The notes beneath the pieces were generated by a model. The model was not told the origin of the DNA and ran no database searches. It saw only the letters and a program-made list of their open reading frames with translations. Both the position numbers and the translations under genes were made by a program. From contig CAMPEQ010000008.1 in NCBI GenBank assembly GCA_946803585.1, forward strand, positions 62,001 through 126,000: a stretch of DNA of 64,000 nt. The letters are read 5' to 3'. This stretch comes from an uncultured Actinomycetes bacterium. GTDB taxonomy: Bacteria > Actinomycetota > Actinomycetes > S36-B12 > UBA10799. Each line of letters opens with the position of its first letter. The stretch's first letter is position 1. This document shows positions 23,557 through 33,924 of this stretch, piece after piece.

Positions 23557-26500
23557 CTAGAGAATCTGGGCAGCAAGTGAGTTGGGTGAGCCAAACCGAT
23601 GCGCGGTGACACTTACAGCCTGTTCTTGCAGGAACGGAAGCAGTTCGACGCGACCCGCCTCGGTGACGGGCCCGTCCCAGATCGCTAGGTCGACTCGGCC
23701 GTCGGCCGTCCGCAGAATCTCAGAGCGTGACAATCCGATCGCTCGCACTCTGGTGACCAGCGGATCAGCCACCTTCTGAGCCCACCGCGATTCGGACTCC
23801 TGCCTGGCGTCAGTCCCAACCGCCGCACAAGCTGCCACGAAGCCAGTCGGAAGTTCGCCCTCGCTCGATACCGTCACCCTCGCACCGACCGCGAGAGAAC
23901 CGGCTACTTCACGGGCCGCCTCAGCGAGCGACCCTGCCTTAGCTAGTCGCACCACAACAGGTTCAGCCACCGGGACGTACCGAAACACATTGCGCTCTGC
24001 AGTAAGTCCGGAGACATCGCGGTAGCGACCGAACTCATCGTTGACGGCCAGGGCGTCGCTGCTCATGCTTCGCTCCAACCAGCTGCTCTCGACGCCCGAT
24101 AACAGTGGATCAATCGCAGTAAGAAATCCGCTTACCCGCTGATCAATCGACCGTTCGGCCGTGCTCGATGTCGGTCGGCTCTCCCACTTTCCTAGACCAA
24201 ACAGGTAGTTTGGTCCGCCGGCTTTCGCCCCCGGTCCGACTGCTGACTTCTTCCAGCCGCCGAAAGGTTGACGTCGCACGATCGCGCCGGTAATACCTCT
24301 GTTGACGTAGAGGTTGCCGGCCTGAACCCGCTCAGTCCAAAGGTTGAGTTCGTCGCTATCGAGGGAGTGGATTCCACTCGTGAGTCCGTACTCGACGTCG
24401 TTCACGATGTCGATAGCCTCGGCTAGGTCGCTGGCAACCATGATCCCGAGGATGGGCCCGAAGTACTCGGTGAGGTGGTACGTGGACCCTCTGGCCACGC
24501 CCGTACGAATCCCCGGTGAGAACAACCGGCCGTCGTTGCCAATCTGCCTGGGTTCAACCAGCCAGCGCTCACCTGGATCGAGCGTGCTCAGCCCTTGACG
24601 GAGTTTCCCCGTTGGAGTCTCGACGACCCGGCTCACTTGTGTCGCCGAGTCAAACTCGGAACCAACTCGCAACGATGTCGTCGCGTCAACCAGTTGGTTG
24701 ATAAATCGCTGCGAATGGGCGACCGAACCGACGAGTACCACCAGTGATGCCGCAGAGCATTTTTGACCAGCGTGGCCAAAGGCAGAACTCACAATGTCCT
24801 TAACTGCCAGATCGAAGTCAGCGCTGGGGGTAACGATGATTGCGTTCTTTCCGCTGGTCTCGGCCAACAACTGCAGACCGGGACGAAACGACCTGAAGAG
24901 CTCCGCTGTTTGGAAGGCGCCGGTCAGAATCACTTGATCAACCCGGCTATCGGAAATAAGCTCGCGCCCTAGCTCGTCTTCTCCGAGATCGACGAGCGTC
25001 AGGGCATCTCGCGGCACGCCCGCTTCCCACATCAGCTCAGCCAGCACACCAGCACACCGACGAGCCGCTGGTGCCGGCTTGAGCACCACTGCAGACCCTG
25101 CTGCCAGCGCCGCCAAGGTGGAACCCGCGGGAATCGCCAACGGGAAATTCCACGGCGGGGTGACAAGCGTCAGCGGAATTGGCTGGAACGCTGCTCCATC
25201 GATCGTGTCCAGTTGCTGCGCTTGGTCGGCATAGAAGTAGGCGAAGTCAATCGCTTCTGAGGCCTCCGGATCTGCCTGATCAATTGTCTTTCCGGTCTCG
25301 GAAACCGCGACCTCGATAAGGAGGTCTCGGTTCTTCTCAAGGTTTGCGCCTACTTGGCGTAGCACCGCGGCACGTTGCGCGGTCTCGATCTGCCCCCATT
25401 TCGCACCACCCGCGCGTGCCCGCGAGAGCACATCATCAAGCTCAGATTTCTGCTCTACCCGTGCACCCGTTATTGCTGCAACCCCTGCTGGAGAGTCAGC
25501 TGCCCGCAGCAAGATTGACTCTGCCCACCCTCGGTTCTGCGGCACTGCCGGATCGGTATCGGAGCTATTCGCGAACGATCCTACGGGTGCGCAGATGTTC
25601 CGCGAGTCGCGTTGCGCTACCCGATGGGGACTGGGCACCTCGTCGTCCAGCACACGAAGGGAGGACAGAAAGCGATCTCGTTCTCGATCAAAGAGCGCTC
25701 GGGAATCAATCAACTCGAACGCGGCGGACATGAAGTTCGCGGAGGTCGCTCCCTCCTCGAGCCGACGAATGAGGTAGGCGATCGCCACGTCAAACTGCTC
25801 GGGCGCGACGACCGGGGTATACAACCGCAGGCCCGCGACGGTCTTGCGGACGGCGTCGGCTTGACCTTGCGCCATCCCCAACAACATCTCGTACTCGACG
25901 CCATCAGCCGCTCCTCGCTCATTCGCGAGCAGCCAGGAGTAGGCAATCTCAAAGAGATTGTGACCGGCAATCCCGATACGAACATTCGCAACGCGCTCGG
26001 GAGTGAGTGCGTAGTCCAGAACACGTTTGTAGTTCGTGTCCGTTTCCTCCTTCGAGTTCCAAGTCGCTAGGGGCCAGTCGTGAATGTCAGCTTCGACCTG
26101 CTCCATCGGAAGGTTCGCACCTTTCACGACTCGGACCTTTATGTCGGCGCCCCCGCGGGCTCGCCGTGTTGCTGACCAGTCTTGAAGGCGAATCATCGCT
26201 GCGAGGGCGTCTGGCAGATAGGCCTGCAGGACGATCCCCGCCGAGAGGTCGAGCATTTCTGGCTTATCAAGCAATGTCATGAACACTGCGATAGTGAGGT
26301 CGAGGTCGCGGTACTCCTCCATGTCCAGGTTGATGAACTTTGGCGTTCCGGCAGCTGCGGCGATCTCAAAAAGCGGGGTCAACTGCTCGACGATGTCTGC
26401 GACGGCATCGTCAAACGCCCACGGATTGTGTGGGGCGACCGTCGAGGAGACCTTGATAGAAACGTAGTCGACGTCATCGCGTGCGAGCATCTGCTTGGTC

Positions 26501-27051
26501 CCCTGCAACCGCCGGGACGCTTCGTCCTTACCCAGAACTGCCTCACCGAGCAAGTTCACGTTGAGGCTGACGCCGTCACTGGTCGCCCGCGCAAGCGCCC
26601 TGCCCAACTTCTCCGGGGAAGCGTCAAGAATCAGGTGGCCAACCATCTTGCGCATGATGCGCCGAGAGATCGGGACAACTACCTCCGGTAGCACGGGGGC
26701 AACCAAACCGCCCACTCGAACAGCTGAGCGAATCCACCACGGAAGGAACCTCGGAACGCTCGGAGCGATCTGCGCTAAGGCATGGGCGGCGACCCGGGAG
26801 TCCTCTGGACGCACCACGCCGTCGACGAATCCAACGGTGAAGGCAAGGCCGTTTGGGTCCTGCAGTACGTCGGCCAACATCTGGGCAGAGAAGGCAGGTT
26901 TGGATTCGGCAGCCCCCTCAAGCCAACTTCGAACCAGTTCTACGCTTTGCTGTGCGCGATGCCGCTGCTCTTGAGTTAGGCCCGCGTAGGGATCGGCAGG
27001 TGGTTGCGAGGGGTCAGGCATCGTGGGGTGTGCCACAACAGTTTCAGACAT
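23557..27051 (-). CDS. putA: Bifunctional proline dehydrogenase / glutamate-semialdehyde dehydrogenase
   Basis: 1164 residues. The N-terminal half is the FAD-dependent proline dehydrogenase barrel (DYVSIKVSS, YLPDALAAMIRLQDW, RVVKGANLPMEQVEAD, RIGIAGHNLFEIAYSW). The second half is an aldehyde dehydrogenase with TPPWNFP, Glu731 in AETSGKNA and the nucleophile Cys765 in GHAGQKCSAASL. It oxidises proline to glutamate via P5C. No N-terminal DNA-binding domain is seen, so it should not self-regulate as in E. coli. It ends a three-gene operon, 24 bases after ctlX. GAGG lies six bases before the ATG. Confidence 0.95.
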   Translation of the reverse strand: MSETVVAHPTMPDPSQPPADPYAGLTQEQRHRAQQSVELVRSWLEGAAESKPAFSAQMLADVLQDPNGLAFTVGFVDGVVRPEDSRVAAHALAQIAPSVPRFLPWWIRSAVRVGGLVAPVLPEVVVPISRRIMRKMVGHLILDASPEKLGRALARATSDGVSLNVNLLGEAVLGKDEASRRLQGTKQMLARDDVDYVSIKVSSTVAPHNPWAFDDAVADIVEQLTPLFEIAAAAGTPKFINLDMEEYRDLDLTIAVFMTLLDKPEMLDLSAGIVLQAYLPDALAAMIRLQDWSATRRARGGADIKVRVVKGANLPMEQVEADIHDWPLATWNSKEETDTNYKRVLDYALTPERVANVRIGIAGHNLFEIAYSWLLANERGAADGVEYEMLLGMAQGQADAVRKTVAGLRLYTPVVAPEQFDVAIAYLIRRLEEGATSANFMSAAFELIDSRALFDRERDRFLSSLRVLDDEVPSPHRVAQRDSRNICAPVGSFANSSDTDPAVPQNRGWAESILLRAADSPAGVAAITGARVEQKSELDDVLSRARAGGAKWGQIETAQRAAVLRQVGANLEKNRDLLIEVAVSETGKTIDQADPEASEAIDFAYFYADQAQQLDTIDGAAFQPIPLTLVTPPWNFPLAIPAGSTLAALAAGSAVVLKPAPAARRCAGVLAELMWEAGVPRDALTLVDLGEDELGRELISDSRVDQVILTGAFQTAELFRSFRPGLQLLAETSGKNAIIVTPSADFDLAVKDIVSSAFGHAGQKCSAASLVVLVGSVAHSQRFINQLVDATTSLRVGSEFDSATQVSRVVETPTGKLRQGLSTLDPGERWLVEPRQIGNDGRLFSPGIRTGVARGSTYHLTEYFGPILGIMVASDLAEAIDIVNDVEYGLTSGIHSLDSDELNLWTERVQAGNLYVNRGITGAIVRRQPFGGWKKSAVGPGAKAGGPNYLFGLGKWESRPTSSTAERSIDQRVSGFLTAIDPLLSGVESSWLERSMSSDALAVNDEFGRYRDVSGLTAERNVFRYVPVAEPVVVRLAKAGSLAEAAREVAGSLAVGARVTVSSEGELPTGFVAACAAVGTDARQESESRWAQKVADPLVTRVRAIGLSRSEILRTADGRVDLAIWDGPVTEAGRVELLPFLQEQAVSVTAHRFGSPNSLAAQIL

Positions 27052-27075
27052 GAGAGACCTCGATCTTCCCTAGCG

Positions 27076-28059
27076 TTAGACAGCCTGCGAGAACGCTCCA
27101 GGCTCGTCAACCCGTATTCCTTGGACAACTGCGCTTCGACGTCGCTTCAGGTGAATACCGGCGATCATGCATCGCACTGAGCCACCCGCCAACTCGATCG
27201 GCCCCACATCGACGGGCAGGATCTGGCACGAGGCTTCAATAACCTCACGTTGCGCGGCAGTCAGACTGCGCGCGGCCCGTTGAGACAGCGCTAGGACCCT
27301 GTGCCCGTGTCGCGTCGTGAGTTCGATCGCGTTTCCGGCAAACTCACGCAACTGCGCTTGCGACAGCGGGACGGTAGCTCGACCACCCGCGGCGAGGCGG
27401 GCTTCGATCCGCCGCCGCTGGGCCTTGGACTGGATCGAATCCAATCCCACCAAAGCGAACTCCGTGGCGATACTCATCAGGATGTTCGTATGGTAAATCG
27501 CACGACCATCATCATCTTGAGCCGAGAAGTACATCGGCTCGTAATCGAACCGCGAACAGAAGCGTTCTAACGCGATCGGGTGGGCGCGACGGGACTTCGC
27601 TGTGTAGGCGACTCTGGCAACGTGGTCCAGGACCATCGTTCCTGTCCCCTCCAGGTACATCCCGTCCGCTTCTAGCCCTGAGAAGTCGACTACTTCGCCG
27701 ACCTCGTACTGCTCGGAAAGGAAGCTCACGATGTCGGAGCGGCGTTCTGTCCTTCTGTTCTCTGCGAACATTGGATAGAGCGCCAACTGACCTTCGGCAT
27801 GCGTGGAGAACCAGTTGTTCGGGAACACGCTGTCGGGTCGATGTGTCTCGGTGTCCTCAAACACGTGAACATCTACCCCGGCCTCAGCAAGAGCATTCGC
27901 CAAACGGGTCGAGGCGTTGTAGGCCGCCTGGGAGATGTCAGCCTTGAACAGCGGTGCTATATCCCACGACTGGAAGGAGTTGTCGGTGTTCGTCTGCGGG
28001 TTCGAGCTGAAGTGATGCGGTCGTACTAGGACGACCGAACCCGGTGCCTGGCAAGACAC
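27076..28059 (-). CDS. ctlX: Amidinotransferase-superfamily hydrolase (CtlX / arginine dihydrolase-like)
   Basis: 327 residues, GTG start four bases after the ornithine cyclodeaminase gene. Guanidino-group-modifying fold: RPHHFSSNPQTN near the start, RPDSVFPNNWFSTH, His190 in IYHTNILMSIA and the catalytic Cys297 in GGSVRCMIAGIHL. Members hydrolyse citrulline (CtlX) or arginine; cyanobacterial AgrE fuses a related domain to ornithine cyclodeaminase. Between ocd and putA it most likely supplies ornithine. Citrulline versus arginine cannot be decided from sequence. Confidence 0.85.
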   Translation of the reverse strand: MSCQAPGSVVLVRPHHFSSNPQTNTDNSFQSWDIAPLFKADISQAAYNASTRLANALAEAGVDVHVFEDTETHRPDSVFPNNWFSTHAEGQLALYPMFAENRRTERRSDIVSFLSEQYEVGEVVDFSGLEADGMYLEGTGTMVLDHVARVAYTAKSRRAHPIALERFCSRFDYEPMYFSAQDDDGRAIYHTNILMSIATEFALVGLDSIQSKAQRRRIEARLAAGGRATVPLSQAQLREFAGNAIELTTRHGHRVLALSQRAARSLTAAQREVIEASCQILPVDVGPIELAGGSVRCMIAGIHLKRRRSAVVQGIRVDEPGAFSQAV

Positions 28060-28063
28060 GACA

Positions 28064-29134
28064 TCACCGGATCACTGCAGAAGCGCCGCCTGCTGAGTGA
28101 ACAGGTTCAACCGCAAGGGTGCTATCACTCACCAACGAGAACAGGTCTTTGGGATCAGCTGGATCCGCGATCAGGTCCACCTCGGTACAGAAGCGCGTTC
28201 CCTTGACGGCATCGTCGACGTAGCGCAGCGCAGTAAAGTCCTCGATTGCAAAGCCGACGGAGTCGAACACCGTGATCTGATCGGCTCGCACACGCCCTGG
28301 CGCATCTCCGCAGAGCACCTGCCACAGCTCTGTGGCGGGATGATCGGCATCGAGCTGCTGAATCTCGCCCTCAATCCGAGTCTGCTCATCGAACTCGATG
28401 AAGATATCTGCTCGGTGCAGGATCTGAGCGTCGAGCTCGGTCTTACCTGGGCAGTCACCACCGATCGCGTTGACGTGAACACCGTCAACGATCATGTCCT
28501 CGGTTAGAACAGTGGCGAGTTGCTTGTCGGCCGTACACGTTGTGATGATGTCGGCGCCAGTGACTGCATCATGGGCACTGGAGGCTCGATAAACCTCGAG
28601 CCCAAGGGCAGCGGCATTGCGTTCGAACTTTTCCATAGCTGCGGGATCGGTGTCCCAGATGCGCAGCGACGAGATCCCCACCAGCTCACGGAATGCCAGG
28701 GACTGGAACTCAGCTTGAGTGCCAGTGCCAATAAGGGCCATCGTGGTGGAATCGGATCGAGCCAACAACCGGGCTGCCATCGCGGAGGTGGTCGCAGTGC
28801 GCAGAGCCGTAAGGATGGTCATCTCCGACCACATGATCGGGTAGCCGCTGGCGACATCCGCGAGAACGCCGAAGGCGGTTACTGTTTGCAAACCGGCGGC
28901 TGGGTTACCGGGATGCCCGTTGACGTACTTGAACCCGTACTGGACTCCGTCGCTAGTAGGCATGAGTTCGATGACGCCGACATTGGAATGGCTCGCAACG
29001 CGAGGGGACTTATCGAACTCGTCCCAGCGACGGAAGTCGTCCTCCATGTACTGGGACATACCCCGAATGATGCTCGGGACGCCGGTACTGGCTACCCACT
29101 CACGCATGTGTGCCACATCTACGAACCGGACCAT
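28064..29134 (-). CDS. ocd: Ornithine cyclodeaminase
   Basis: 356 residues from the ATG at 29134, which has GGAGTGGG just upstream; a TTG four codons earlier is in frame. It matches the OCD/mu-crystallin family: MWSEMTILTALRTATTSAMA, the NAD-binding ALIGTGTQAEFQSLAF, GADIITTCTADK and HVNAIGGDCPGKTELD. It converts ornithine to proline and ammonia using NAD+. It is the first gene of ocd-ctlX-putA, divergent from the Lrp-type regulator. Confidence 0.93.
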   Translation of the reverse strand: MVRFVDVAHMREWVASTGVPSIIRGMSQYMEDDFRRWDEFDKSPRVASHSNVGVIELMPTSDGVQYGFKYVNGHPGNPAAGLQTVTAFGVLADVASGYPIMWSEMTILTALRTATTSAMAARLLARSDSTTMALIGTGTQAEFQSLAFRELVGISSLRIWDTDPAAMEKFERNAAALGLEVYRASSAHDAVTGADIITTCTADKQLATVLTEDMIVDGVHVNAIGGDCPGKTELDAQILHRADIFIEFDEQTRIEGEIQQLDADHPATELWQVLCGDAPGRVRADQITVFDSVGFAIEDFTALRYVDDAVKGTRFCTEVDLIADPADPKDLFSLVSDSTLAVEPVHSAGGASAVIR

Positions 29135-29195
29135 TTCCCACTCCAATCATTGAGTAACCTTGCCATTACCCTAGGTGACGAGAACGTACACTCGC

Positions 29196-29255
29196 AATGA
29201 GCAGGACGTATCAATCCGTATAGTTTATCGCTCATTTGTGCAGTACTGCTATACA
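29196..29255. promoter_or_regulatory. Operator/promoter region between ocd and the Lrp-type gene
   Basis: Three nested symmetric elements are visible: AATGAGC (29196-29202) with GCTCATT (29230-29236), GTATAG (29218-29223) with CTATAC (29249-29254), and the perfect palindrome GCAGTACTGC (29240-29249). TATACA (29250-29255) is a probable -10 box eight bases before the regulator's ATG. The layout suits multimeric Lrp/AsnC binding. Confidence 0.5.
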
Positions 29256-29263
29256 GTTCGACT

Positions 29264-29698
29264 ATGGCAGTCCAGATTGACGACCTCGACCGGCGACTCA
29301 TTGCGTTACTCAGAGCGAACGGCAGGGAGTCGGTAGTCAACTTGGCTAAGCGACTTGAGGTCACCCGGGCAACCGTGAACAGCCGGATCGATCGCCTCGT
29401 TGATAGCGGAGTGATTATTGGCTTCTCTGCGCGTGTTCGCGACGTCAGCGATCCGAACTCGGTTCGCGCAATCATGCTGATCTCTGTGATCGGTCGGAAT
29501 ACCGATGAAGTCATCACGGCACTGAGGGGTATCCCGGAAATTGGTGCGCTACACACGACCAATGGGCAGTGGGACCTTGTCGCAGAGATGATCTGCGACA
29601 GTCTCGGTACCTTTGACAACGTGCTCGGCGTGATCCGTGGAATCCAGGGAATCCACGACAGTGAGACGAGCATCCTGCTCAGTTCCGCCACTGCATAG
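29264..29698 (+). CDS. Lrp/AsnC-family transcription regulator
   Basis: 144 residues: N-terminal helix-turn-helix (DDLDRRLIALLRANGRESVVNLAKRLEVTRATVNSRIDRL within residues 6-45) and a C-terminal RAM ligand-binding domain (TNGQWDLVAEM). These regulators form octamers that respond to amino acids. Divergent placement with ocd-ctlX-putA predicts control of that operon by arginine, ornithine or proline. A -10-like TATACA eight bases upstream and no ribosome-binding site suggest a leaderless mRNA and autoregulation. Confidence 0.92.
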   Translation: MAVQIDDLDRRLIALLRANGRESVVNLAKRLEVTRATVNSRIDRLVDSGVIIGFSARVRDVSDPNSVRAIMLISVIGRNTDEVITALRGIPEIGALHTTNGQWDLVAEMICDSLGTFDNVLGVIRGIQGIHDSETSILLSSATA

Positions 29699-29724: not shown

Positions 29725-30882
29725 GTGAAGACACCCCCAGCACGGAGCCCGCGGCAATACGCGATCATCGGGATGCTGCTTGCGACAGTCACGCTCATTA
29801 GTGCGTGCGCCTCGACAGACTCTGCTCAGCAACAACTTCCGGGCGGGGCGGAACAAACAGAGCAGATCTTCCTGTCCTCGATCCAACCGGATGCAGGGCC
29901 CCGCCCGGTCGTGAACTATATCGATACGGCCAAGAAGACCCTCGACATCTACATGTACGAGTTCGAAGGCACCTACGCCCCGATCGTTGACGCAACGACA
30001 CGCGCGAAGAACCGAGGTGTCAAGGTTCGGATCCTTCTTTCGAGACGAGAGGTCGGTCAAGAAAAGACTAGAACGAACGACAATCACAAGGCGGCCAAGA
30101 TCCTCAACAGGTTGGGAATCGAGACCAAATTCAGTCGCCCGGAATTCTATGTCTCCCACGCAAAGGCCATCATCGTCGATAGCGGCACCACGAACCAAAG
30201 CGTGATGATCTGCGACTTCAATATCGGATCCGGATACTTCGGTGGCGCCTCGCAGTTTCCAACAACTGGGCAGGGCGGAACTCGCGGAATGTCCGTCATC
30301 GACACCAATCCCGCCGACATCGCCAACATCGCCGCGACGTTCGAAGCAGATTGGCCTCCCTACTCGACGGGCCCCACCCCAACTAGACCCAACCTCATAT
30401 GGGCCCCGGGAGGAGAGAGATTTCAGCCACCCGGCAACGCGCCGAGGGCTACCGAATTGCTACTGCTCGAAGCCCGCCACTCACTCGATATCTATGCCCA
30501 AGCGATCAGCGAAACATCTGAACTAGTGCAACCCACGATTGAGACGGCTAATCGTGGCGTGCCAGTTCGAATCATCAGTAATGCGAAAGGTATCGCTCCC
30601 GAGGCCGCCACCAAGCTGCGCGACGCCGGGGTACAACTTGCAATGCAACCACCAGACCCGACCCAGCCCGGAACCCATTTGTTCGTTCATTCCAAGACGG
30701 TCCTCGTCGACACTGGCTATCCGACAGCGGTCAGTATGGTCGGATCGCTCAATATCTACTCGAACGCTTCGCTGTATGCCGAACGCGAACTCGACGCCTT
30801 TGTTACCGATCCGCCCTCAACAGAAGAGATGCAGCGAACGTTCGACACAGATTTCTCCGCTAGCCCCGCCTACGCAGGCTGA
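29725..30882 (+). CDS. Secreted phospholipase-D-like lipoprotein
   Basis: 385 residues, GTG start. Lipobox LISAC at about residue 27 predicts an outer-face lipoprotein. Two HxKx4D motifs are present, SHAKAIIVD in the first half and VHSKTVLVD in the second, each followed by an Asn-containing segment (CDFNIGS, GSLNIYSN). The N-terminal core LDIYMYEFEGTYAPIVDA is typical of PLD-like proteins. The enzyme class covers phospholipases, nucleases and cardiolipin synthases; an exported lipoprotein argues against cardiolipin synthesis. It is 26 bases after the Lrp-type gene and may be co-transcribed. Confidence 0.85.
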   Translation: MKTPPARSPRQYAIIGMLLATVTLISACASTDSAQQQLPGGAEQTEQIFLSSIQPDAGPRPVVNYIDTAKKTLDIYMYEFEGTYAPIVDATTRAKNRGVKVRILLSRREVGQEKTRTNDNHKAAKILNRLGIETKFSRPEFYVSHAKAIIVDSGTTNQSVMICDFNIGSGYFGGASQFPTTGQGGTRGMSVIDTNPADIANIAATFEADWPPYSTGPTPTRPNLIWAPGGERFQPPGNAPRATELLLLEARHSLDIYAQAISETSELVQPTIETANRGVPVRIISNAKGIAPEAATKLRDAGVQLAMQPPDPTQPGTHLFVHSKTVLVDTGYPTAVSMVGSLNIYSNASLYAERELDAFVTDPPSTEEMQRTFDTDFSASPAYAG

Positions 30883-32547: not shown

Positions 32548-33924
32548 TTGAGTATCGACCCAAAAGAGAAGCCAGCGCCAACCACTGCCGCAGCGAGCTC
32601 CGCCAAGGGGTTTAGTCTGCCTGCTGCGGTCTCAATCGGGATCGGCGGAATGGCCGGTGGGTCGATCTTCGCGATCGTCGGAATCGGCGGATCCGTCGCC
32701 GGAGCGGCTCTTCCACTGGCCATGATCCTGTCCGGGATCGTTGCCCTACTCGCCTCCTACTCCTACGCAAAACTTGGCGCCAAGTTCCCGACTTCGGGCG
32801 GAGCTGTCGAGTTCCTCGTTCGCGGGTACGGCAAGGGTGTGATCTCTGGCGGACTCAATATCTTTCAGTGGCTCGGTTACGTACTAGCCCTTGCACTCTA
32901 CGGACACGCGTTTGCGGGCTACCTCGTCTCGCTCCTGGGGATATCTGACCCAAATGGTCCGCTCGAGAAAGCCATCGCATCCCTGCTCGTCGTCGTGTTT
33001 GCCTTCCTACAGTTCGGCGGCACGGCGGTGGTGGGCAAGGCCCAGACTGTGATCGTCGGGGCGTGTGTTGTCGCCCTGGTTGGCTTCGCAGTCGCCGGAC
33101 TGTTCTTCGTGGAGCCAGCGCGAATCGAGTTCAGCGCGTGGAATGGTCCAATCGATATCCTTTTTGCGGCCGGAATCGTGTTTATCGGTTTTGAGGGATT
33201 CGGCTTGGTCACTAACACCGCTGGCGGAATGAAGAACCCTGCCAAAGAGCTTCCCAAGGCGCTCTACCTGAGCATCACCATCGTCATCGGGATCTATGTC
33301 CTGACCGCGATCACGCTCATCGGCAACCTCACGATGGCGCAGATTAACCAAGGTCAAGGATTCGCCCTAGCGGAGGCAGTCGGCAGCTTCGCTGGACGAT
33401 TCGGACTCGTTACATTGTCGATTGTCGCGTTGTTCGCAACTGCCTCGGCAGTAAACGCAACGATCTTTGGCAGTGCCAACGCCAGCTACCAGATTGCCCG
33501 CGATGGCGAGCTTCCGCGCGAGTTTGATCGCAAAATCTGGTCTGCGAATGCTCGCGGTGGACTGTTTATCACCGCGCTTCTGGCGATCGCTGCAATATTC
33601 TTCCTCGACATCACCAAAGTGACGATGCTTGGTAGCGCGGCATTCCTCTTGCTCTACGCGGCGGTTAACTTCGGCCACCTCAGGGTGCGCGATCAGACCG
33701 GCGCTAAGGCAGGGATGATCTGGGCCTCCATGCTCTCGTGTCTGCTGGTATTCGGCTTCCTGGCTGTGTACATCGTTCAGACCGAGGGCATGCTCACGAT
33801 GATTCTCATCGTCATCATGTTGATCGTCAGCTTCATCGCCGAGAAAGCCTTCCGCGAGTTCCGTAAACATCGTAAACCACCCAACCCGTCGACAACGCCG
33901 AGCCAGTCGGGATCGGCAGCCTGA
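32548..33924 (+). CDS. APC-family amino acid permease
   Basis: 458 residues with about twelve transmembrane helices. The first helix region SLPAAVSIGIGGMAGGSIFA is the conserved APC GxG(G) substrate-binding segment; GAVEFLVRGYG and FIGFEGFGLVTNTAGGMKNPAKELPKAL (core residues about 215-240) are also typical. It should import an amino acid or amine. The TTG start lacks a close ribosome-binding site. It lies 3 kb from the arginine-to-glutamate genes and is a candidate but unproven uptake system for them. Confidence 0.85.
   Translation: MSIDPKEKPAPTTAAASSAKGFSLPAAVSIGIGGMAGGSIFAIVGIGGSVAGAALPLAMILSGIVALLASYSYAKLGAKFPTSGGAVEFLVRGYGKGVISGGLNIFQWLGYVLALALYGHAFAGYLVSLLGISDPNGPLEKAIASLLVVVFAFLQFGGTAVVGKAQTVIVGACVVALVGFAVAGLFFVEPARIEFSAWNGPIDILFAAGIVFIGFEGFGLVTNTAGGMKNPAKELPKALYLSITIVIGIYVLTAITLIGNLTMAQINQGQGFALAEAVGSFAGRFGLVTLSIVALFATASAVNATIFGSANASYQIARDGELPREFDRKIWSANARGGLFITALLAIAAIFFLDITKVTMLGSAAFLLLYAAVNFGHLRVRDQTGAKAGMIWASMLSCLLVFGFLAVYIVQTEGMLTMILIVIMLIVSFIAEKAFREFRKHRKPPNPSTTPSQSGSAA

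Follow-up and report, generated by a model that had tools for sequence, protein, structure and literature searches.

In a 64,000-nucleotide stretch of contig CAMPEQ010000008.1 (assembly GCA_946803585.1; the whole stretch is referred to here as the window), from an uncultured Actinomycetes bacterium, the genes ocd, ctlX and putA run head to tail in that order on the minus strand, with gaps of 4 bases (ocd to ctlX) and 24 bases (ctlX to putA), and a gene for an Lrp/AsnC-family regulator, lrp, diverges from them. The coordinates confirm this layout as described in a first-pass annotation of the sequence. We conclude that the block is probably a citrulline-degradation operon, in which citrulline would be converted through ornithine and proline to glutamate under the divergent regulator. 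The ctlX-ocd module at its core is already published and widespread; the additions made here are putA as the third gene in this genus, a second species of which is represented by genome G001, and a candidate operator. The features of the block are:

28064..29134, minus strand: ocd, ornithine cyclodeaminase (ornithine to proline and NH3), operon gene 1, identified by family model and solved homologue
27076..28059, minus strand: ctlX, predicted citrulline hydrolase (citrulline to ornithine and carbamate), operon gene 2, GTG start, 327 amino acids
23557..27051, minus strand: putA, bifunctional proline dehydrogenase and pyrroline-5-carboxylate (P5C; glutamate semialdehyde) dehydrogenase, gene 3, ATG start, 1164 amino acids
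29264..29698, plus strand: lrp, Lrp/AsnC-family regulator gene divergent from the operon, which its product is predicted to regulate locally, ATG start, 144 amino acids
29135..29263, no strand: divergent control region of 129 bases between the ocd ATG and the lrp ATG, 45% G+C, with blocks conserved in the congener
29206..29223, minus strand: conserved element CTATACGGATTGATACGT, candidate operator, 17 of 18 bases the same at the same position in G001
29249..29261, no strand: CTATACAGTTCGA, the outer arm of an inverted repeat whose other arm is 29211-29223; the two arms are 25 bases apart

The mechanically called ocd open reading frame opens at a TTG at 29146 and ends at the stop at 28064; the true start is likely the ATG at 29134, because a GGAG precedes it and it aligns with residue 1 of the Pseudomonas putida enzyme. 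On its 3' side, putA faces a convergent DUF6159 gene 11 bases away.

The lower part of the pathway, from ornithine through proline to glutamate, had already been proposed in the first-pass annotation, and the family matches and retained residues of both enzymes support it well. The OCD is of the mu-crystallin type (PF02423), scored 539.4 bits against the equivalog model NF005762 (cut-off 350) and shares 56.6% identity with 1u7h, the ornithine cyclodeaminase structure from P. putida. Compared with that structure it retains Arg45, Glu56, Lys69, Arg112 and Asp228, the substrate-binding and catalytic residues on which the enzyme depends, and it would convert ornithine to L-proline with release of NH3. 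PutA carries its Pro_dh (residues 152-442) and Aldedh (521-946) domains in one chain, and its match to 5ux5, a bifunctional PutA of solved structure, spans almost the full chain (885.6 bits). The motifs YLIRRLEE, AETSGKNA and GQKCSAAS, including the catalytic cysteine, are present, and the enzyme would take proline through P5C/glutamate semialdehyde to L-glutamate. The net effect would be the passage of citrulline carbon and nitrogen into the glutamate pool without a transaminase.

CtlX, the enzyme that would open this route, scored 391.9 bits against the NCBIfam equivalog model NF046062 (cut-off 334). Its sequence contains the motifs FPNN (79-82), EGTG (137-140), YHTN (189-192) and RCM (296-298), and Cys297, His190 and Glu137, which make up the catalytic set of the superfamily, are invariant in a 43-sequence alignment. 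As a Cys/His/Glu hydrolase of the arginine deiminase/DDAH superfamily, it would cleave L-citrulline to L-ornithine and carbamate, the latter decaying to CO2 and NH3. The family was named by Price et al. 2022 (PMC9007349) from mutant fitness, with ctlX and ocd needed for citrulline use and ctlX often adjoining ocd. A citrullinase was inferred there since the aspartates of guanidino enzymes (FTRD, HLD) are replaced in CtlX by asparagine (FPNN, HTN). By motif correspondence, the two guanidinium-binding aspartates in the FxRD and HLD motifs of arginine deiminases are both asparagine in the window CtlX, and the same holds for 97 of 97 homologues scored, a count that is partly circular because most of these loci were retrieved by patterns containing FPNN/YHTN-type motifs; the 12 loci recovered with a profile and no motif pattern agree at both positions. 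The arginine deiminase of the same genome, ArcA, carries FQRD and HLD where CtlX has FPNN and YHTN. A profile comparison of these two proteins aligned a short N-terminal stretch only, and the equivalence of aspartate and asparagine rests on PMC9007349.

The arginine deiminase cluster lies on another contig than the operon (G000:C11, locus L100, 6240-11020) and encodes a basic amino acid antiporter-like protein, carbamate kinase, arginine deiminase and ornithine carbamoyltransferase. Because of this separate cluster and the paired asparagines of FPNN and YHTN, citrulline rather than arginine is most likely the substrate of CtlX, which narrows the earlier proposal of either compound. The gene partners of ctlX elsewhere also favor citrulline, since neither an arginase nor a DDAH-like gene would be needed next to an enzyme with complete arginine dihydrolase activity. 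In Rhodobacterales, ctlX stands behind a true arginase (L043; TIGR01229, 286 bits), and in several Rhizobiales (L030, L040, L046 and L057) a DDAH-like gene lies directly downstream of ctlX, which suggests a route from dimethylarginine through citrulline to ornithine in these loci. In the window genome (2.71 Mb, 98.8% complete) no arginase was found, no ornithine aminotransferase scored over the cut-off, and there was no match to PF21570, the ArgZ/AgrE-type C-terminal OCD domain. Arginine would enter by way of the separate ArcA, which would yield citrulline, and on paper the route from arginine through citrulline, ornithine and proline to glutamate is complete, with its first step outside the operon. 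The genome also encodes a second CtlX-family protein (G000:C11:748850-749755; locus L008, 10851-11756), with 380 bits to NF046062 and 35% identity to the operon CtlX; its gene stands alone on another contig than the operon, beside a Sua5/YrdC gene, and this type also occurs in three other genera of the order, likewise without ocd.

The distribution of the module was surveyed in the 80 named loci most similar to the window CtlX. On the same strand, ocd adjoins ctlX in 56 of the 80; a divergent lrp is likewise found in 56, and 48 have both. The commonest order is that of the window, lrp divergent from ocd-ctlX, while Rhodobacterales have lrp divergent from arginase-ctlX-ocd. Chance does not explain this order, since the ocd-ctlX pair and its divergent lrp turn up repeatedly in both Actinomycetota and Pseudomonadota. 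CtlX is rare in the class (15/395 sampled genomes), and in the tree the window protein groups with that of G001 and then with Salinibacterium, inside Actinomycetota. Among 19 genomes checked for PutA, most of them with ctlX, the window genome and its congener G001 are the only two in which putA immediately follows ctlX, and in G001 the whole lrp/ocd/ctlX/putA block recurs (locus L009). The block thus looks like the standard actinobacterial ocd-ctlX module to which this genus has added putA.

The lrp product has an AsnC-type HTH domain (HTH_AsnC-type) and an AsnC_trans_reg domain, and the control region between lrp and ocd has a G+C content of 45%, compared with 60% for the window. The gaps of the window and G001 have in common CTATACG(G/A)ATTGATACGT, an inverted partner (TGTATAG/CGTATAG) at a distance of about three helical turns and, roughly two turns past that partner, a TGTACGT block, with the conserved blocks at identical offsets of 24, 56, 67 and 89 in both. 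The inverted repeat of G001 has the arms TCGTATAG and CTATACGA, which are likewise separated by 25 bases. The 18-base element at 29206-29223 has one exact copy in the whole genome, and the next best copy has 3 mismatches. This spacing fits an Lrp-family protein that binds one face of the helix, and a dedicated local regulator of the operon is supported because the motif is conserved between two species and has a single exact copy in the genome. The regulator would act on these conserved sites and switch the operon upon a pathway amino acid. Of the single amino-acid-sensing regulator proposed in the first-pass annotation, the divergent layout, found in most relatives, is well supported, with regulation itself as the predicted part. 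A different motif, CAAATTGC (at most 1 mismatch), occurs in 20 of 35 lrp-ocd gaps of other loci, compared with 5.4 expected from dinucleotide shuffles, and is possibly an Lrp-box in these mostly proteobacterial members.

Several points weigh against a citrulline operon. In the flanking sequence retrieved, just 1 of the 80 loci, L085, has a full-length putA, which lies there upstream of and divergent from ocd, and putA is outside the module in nearly all relatives. A consensus scan for promoters and terminators gave nothing beyond shuffles, and the single transcript is something that we infer. In PMC9007349 the activity of CtlX rests on mutant fitness and biochemical proof is asked for, and ctlX also mattered on ornithine in those data. 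The remaining points concern structure. Neither the CtlX sequence by itself nor profiles built from 6 and from 43 sequences retrieved a relative among solved structures; CtlX was placed among them by fold comparison only. The predicted structure (mean predicted local distance difference test score 90.3) has the dihydrolase-domain fold, which is common to the wider superfamily, and the closest solved folds by Foldseek are the ArgZ/AgrE arginine dihydrolases (6juy and 6jv1; E 3e-15, template modeling (TM) score 0.67-0.80), followed by human DDAH-1, all at about 16% identity. ArgZ has an asparagine as well, Asn71, which is singled out for mutation in PDB titles, so asparagine alone is no bar to arginine as a substrate.

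These structural points are the basis for reading CtlX as an arginine dihydrolase like ArgZ and AgrE, which would convert arginine to ornithine, two ammonia and CO2 and make the operon a complete arginine-to-glutamate route. The closeness of both folds (E 3e-15, TM 0.68/0.80), the position of Asn71 as a studied active-site residue, the lack of an arginase in the genome and the cooperation of AgrE with PutA in cyanobacteria (PMC8262935) are all in keeping with it. Set against these are the low identity, with no match to ArgZ/AgrE at the sequence level even with the 43-sequence profile, the replacement of both guanidinium-binding aspartates across the scored homologues (retrieved for the most part by those motifs), the presence of ArcA for arginine, and the arginase and DDAH-like partners of ctlX elsewhere, which a dihydrolase would make redundant. 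We regard an arginine dihydrolase as a genuine but unlikely alternative. Slightly less likely still is the more far-reaching proposal of a free-standing, non-cyanobacterial arginine/citrulline dihydrolase that, with ocd and putA and without the OCD domain of AgrE, would form a self-contained arginine-to-glutamate operon, controlled by a dedicated Lrp-type protein that senses citrulline or ornithine.

Two further explanations have very little probability. The operon might supply proline for protein synthesis or osmoprotection, with PutA trimming any excess; OCD yields proline directly, and proline is an osmolyte. Such a purpose fits poorly with a proline-destroying enzyme whose gene belongs to the run and follows ctlX at a distance of 24 bases, with the genome's own proC (adjoined by a second, stand-alone proline dehydrogenase), and with the mutant fitness data from other bacteria that link ctlX and ocd to catabolism (PMC9007349), and we consider it highly improbable. 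Hydrolysis of methylated arginines by CtlX is the least credible of all, as its match to PF19420 (DDAH_eukar; 289.6 bits) and the fold of DDAH-1 among its nearest are countered by the score over the CtlX equivalog cut-off, the lack of any match to the dimethylargininase models NF045658, NF045659 and NF045660, and the separate DDAH-like gene beside ctlX in Rhizobiales.

As a citrulline operon, the block most resembles the published CtlX/ocd module (PMC9007349; NF046062), with which it shares a CtlX over the family cut-off, the paired asparagines, ocd on the same strand and, in most relatives, a divergent lrp, and from which it differs in its third gene, putA. The first-pass annotation had instead described the block as an unfused version of the cyanobacterial AgrE/ArgZ and PutA route (PMC8262935). 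The logic of ornithine to proline to glutamate is indeed common to both and the fold of CtlX is nearest the ArgZ/AgrE N-domain, but the parts are not shared: the window genes are separate rather than a dihydrolase-OCD fusion, the OCD is of the PF02423 type in a genome without PF21570, CtlX and ArgZ/AgrE have no sequence match, and the substrate is likely citrulline rather than arginine. A search of Actinomycetota through PF21570 for an ArgZ-like N-domain partner yielded ArgZ-type OCD proteins, and none of the 4 loci read had a recognizable dihydrolase partner. The mycobacterial roc cluster Rv2319c-rocE-rocD-Rv2323c with its regulator Rv2324 (PMC4569260) is also actinobacterial and has an adjacent regulator gene and a hydrolase, annotated as DDAH, that feeds into proline and glutamate, but it has rocD and rocE in place of ocd and putA, and the window CtlX matched no DDAH-Mtb or other dimethylargininase model. 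The Rhodobacterales cluster (for example L043) shares ctlX, ocd and divergent lrp, and differs in its ctlX-ocd order with arginase in front and in having no putA.

In the surroundings of the block, a Phospholipase D-like protein (PLDc_2; 29725-30882) is encoded on the same strand as lrp, 26 bases downstream of it, and at a distance of some 3 kb the operon has an APC-family amino acid permease gene as a neighbor (32548-33924), a candidate citrulline/ornithine importer. The idea that the operon was recently inserted from a foreign source and is unusual in composition was rejected, as the G+C content of its genes (57-61%) matches that of the window (60%).

In total, the pathway was already published in outline and its picture is unchanged, so the operon is of use as annotation and comes as no surprise. 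It adds detail on how a little-studied lineage of actinobacteria breaks down amino acids, places the predicted citrullinase CtlX in a compact operon where its activity could be assayed along with the enzymes that act after it, and gives an uncharacterized Lrp/AsnC regulator a precisely located candidate operator.

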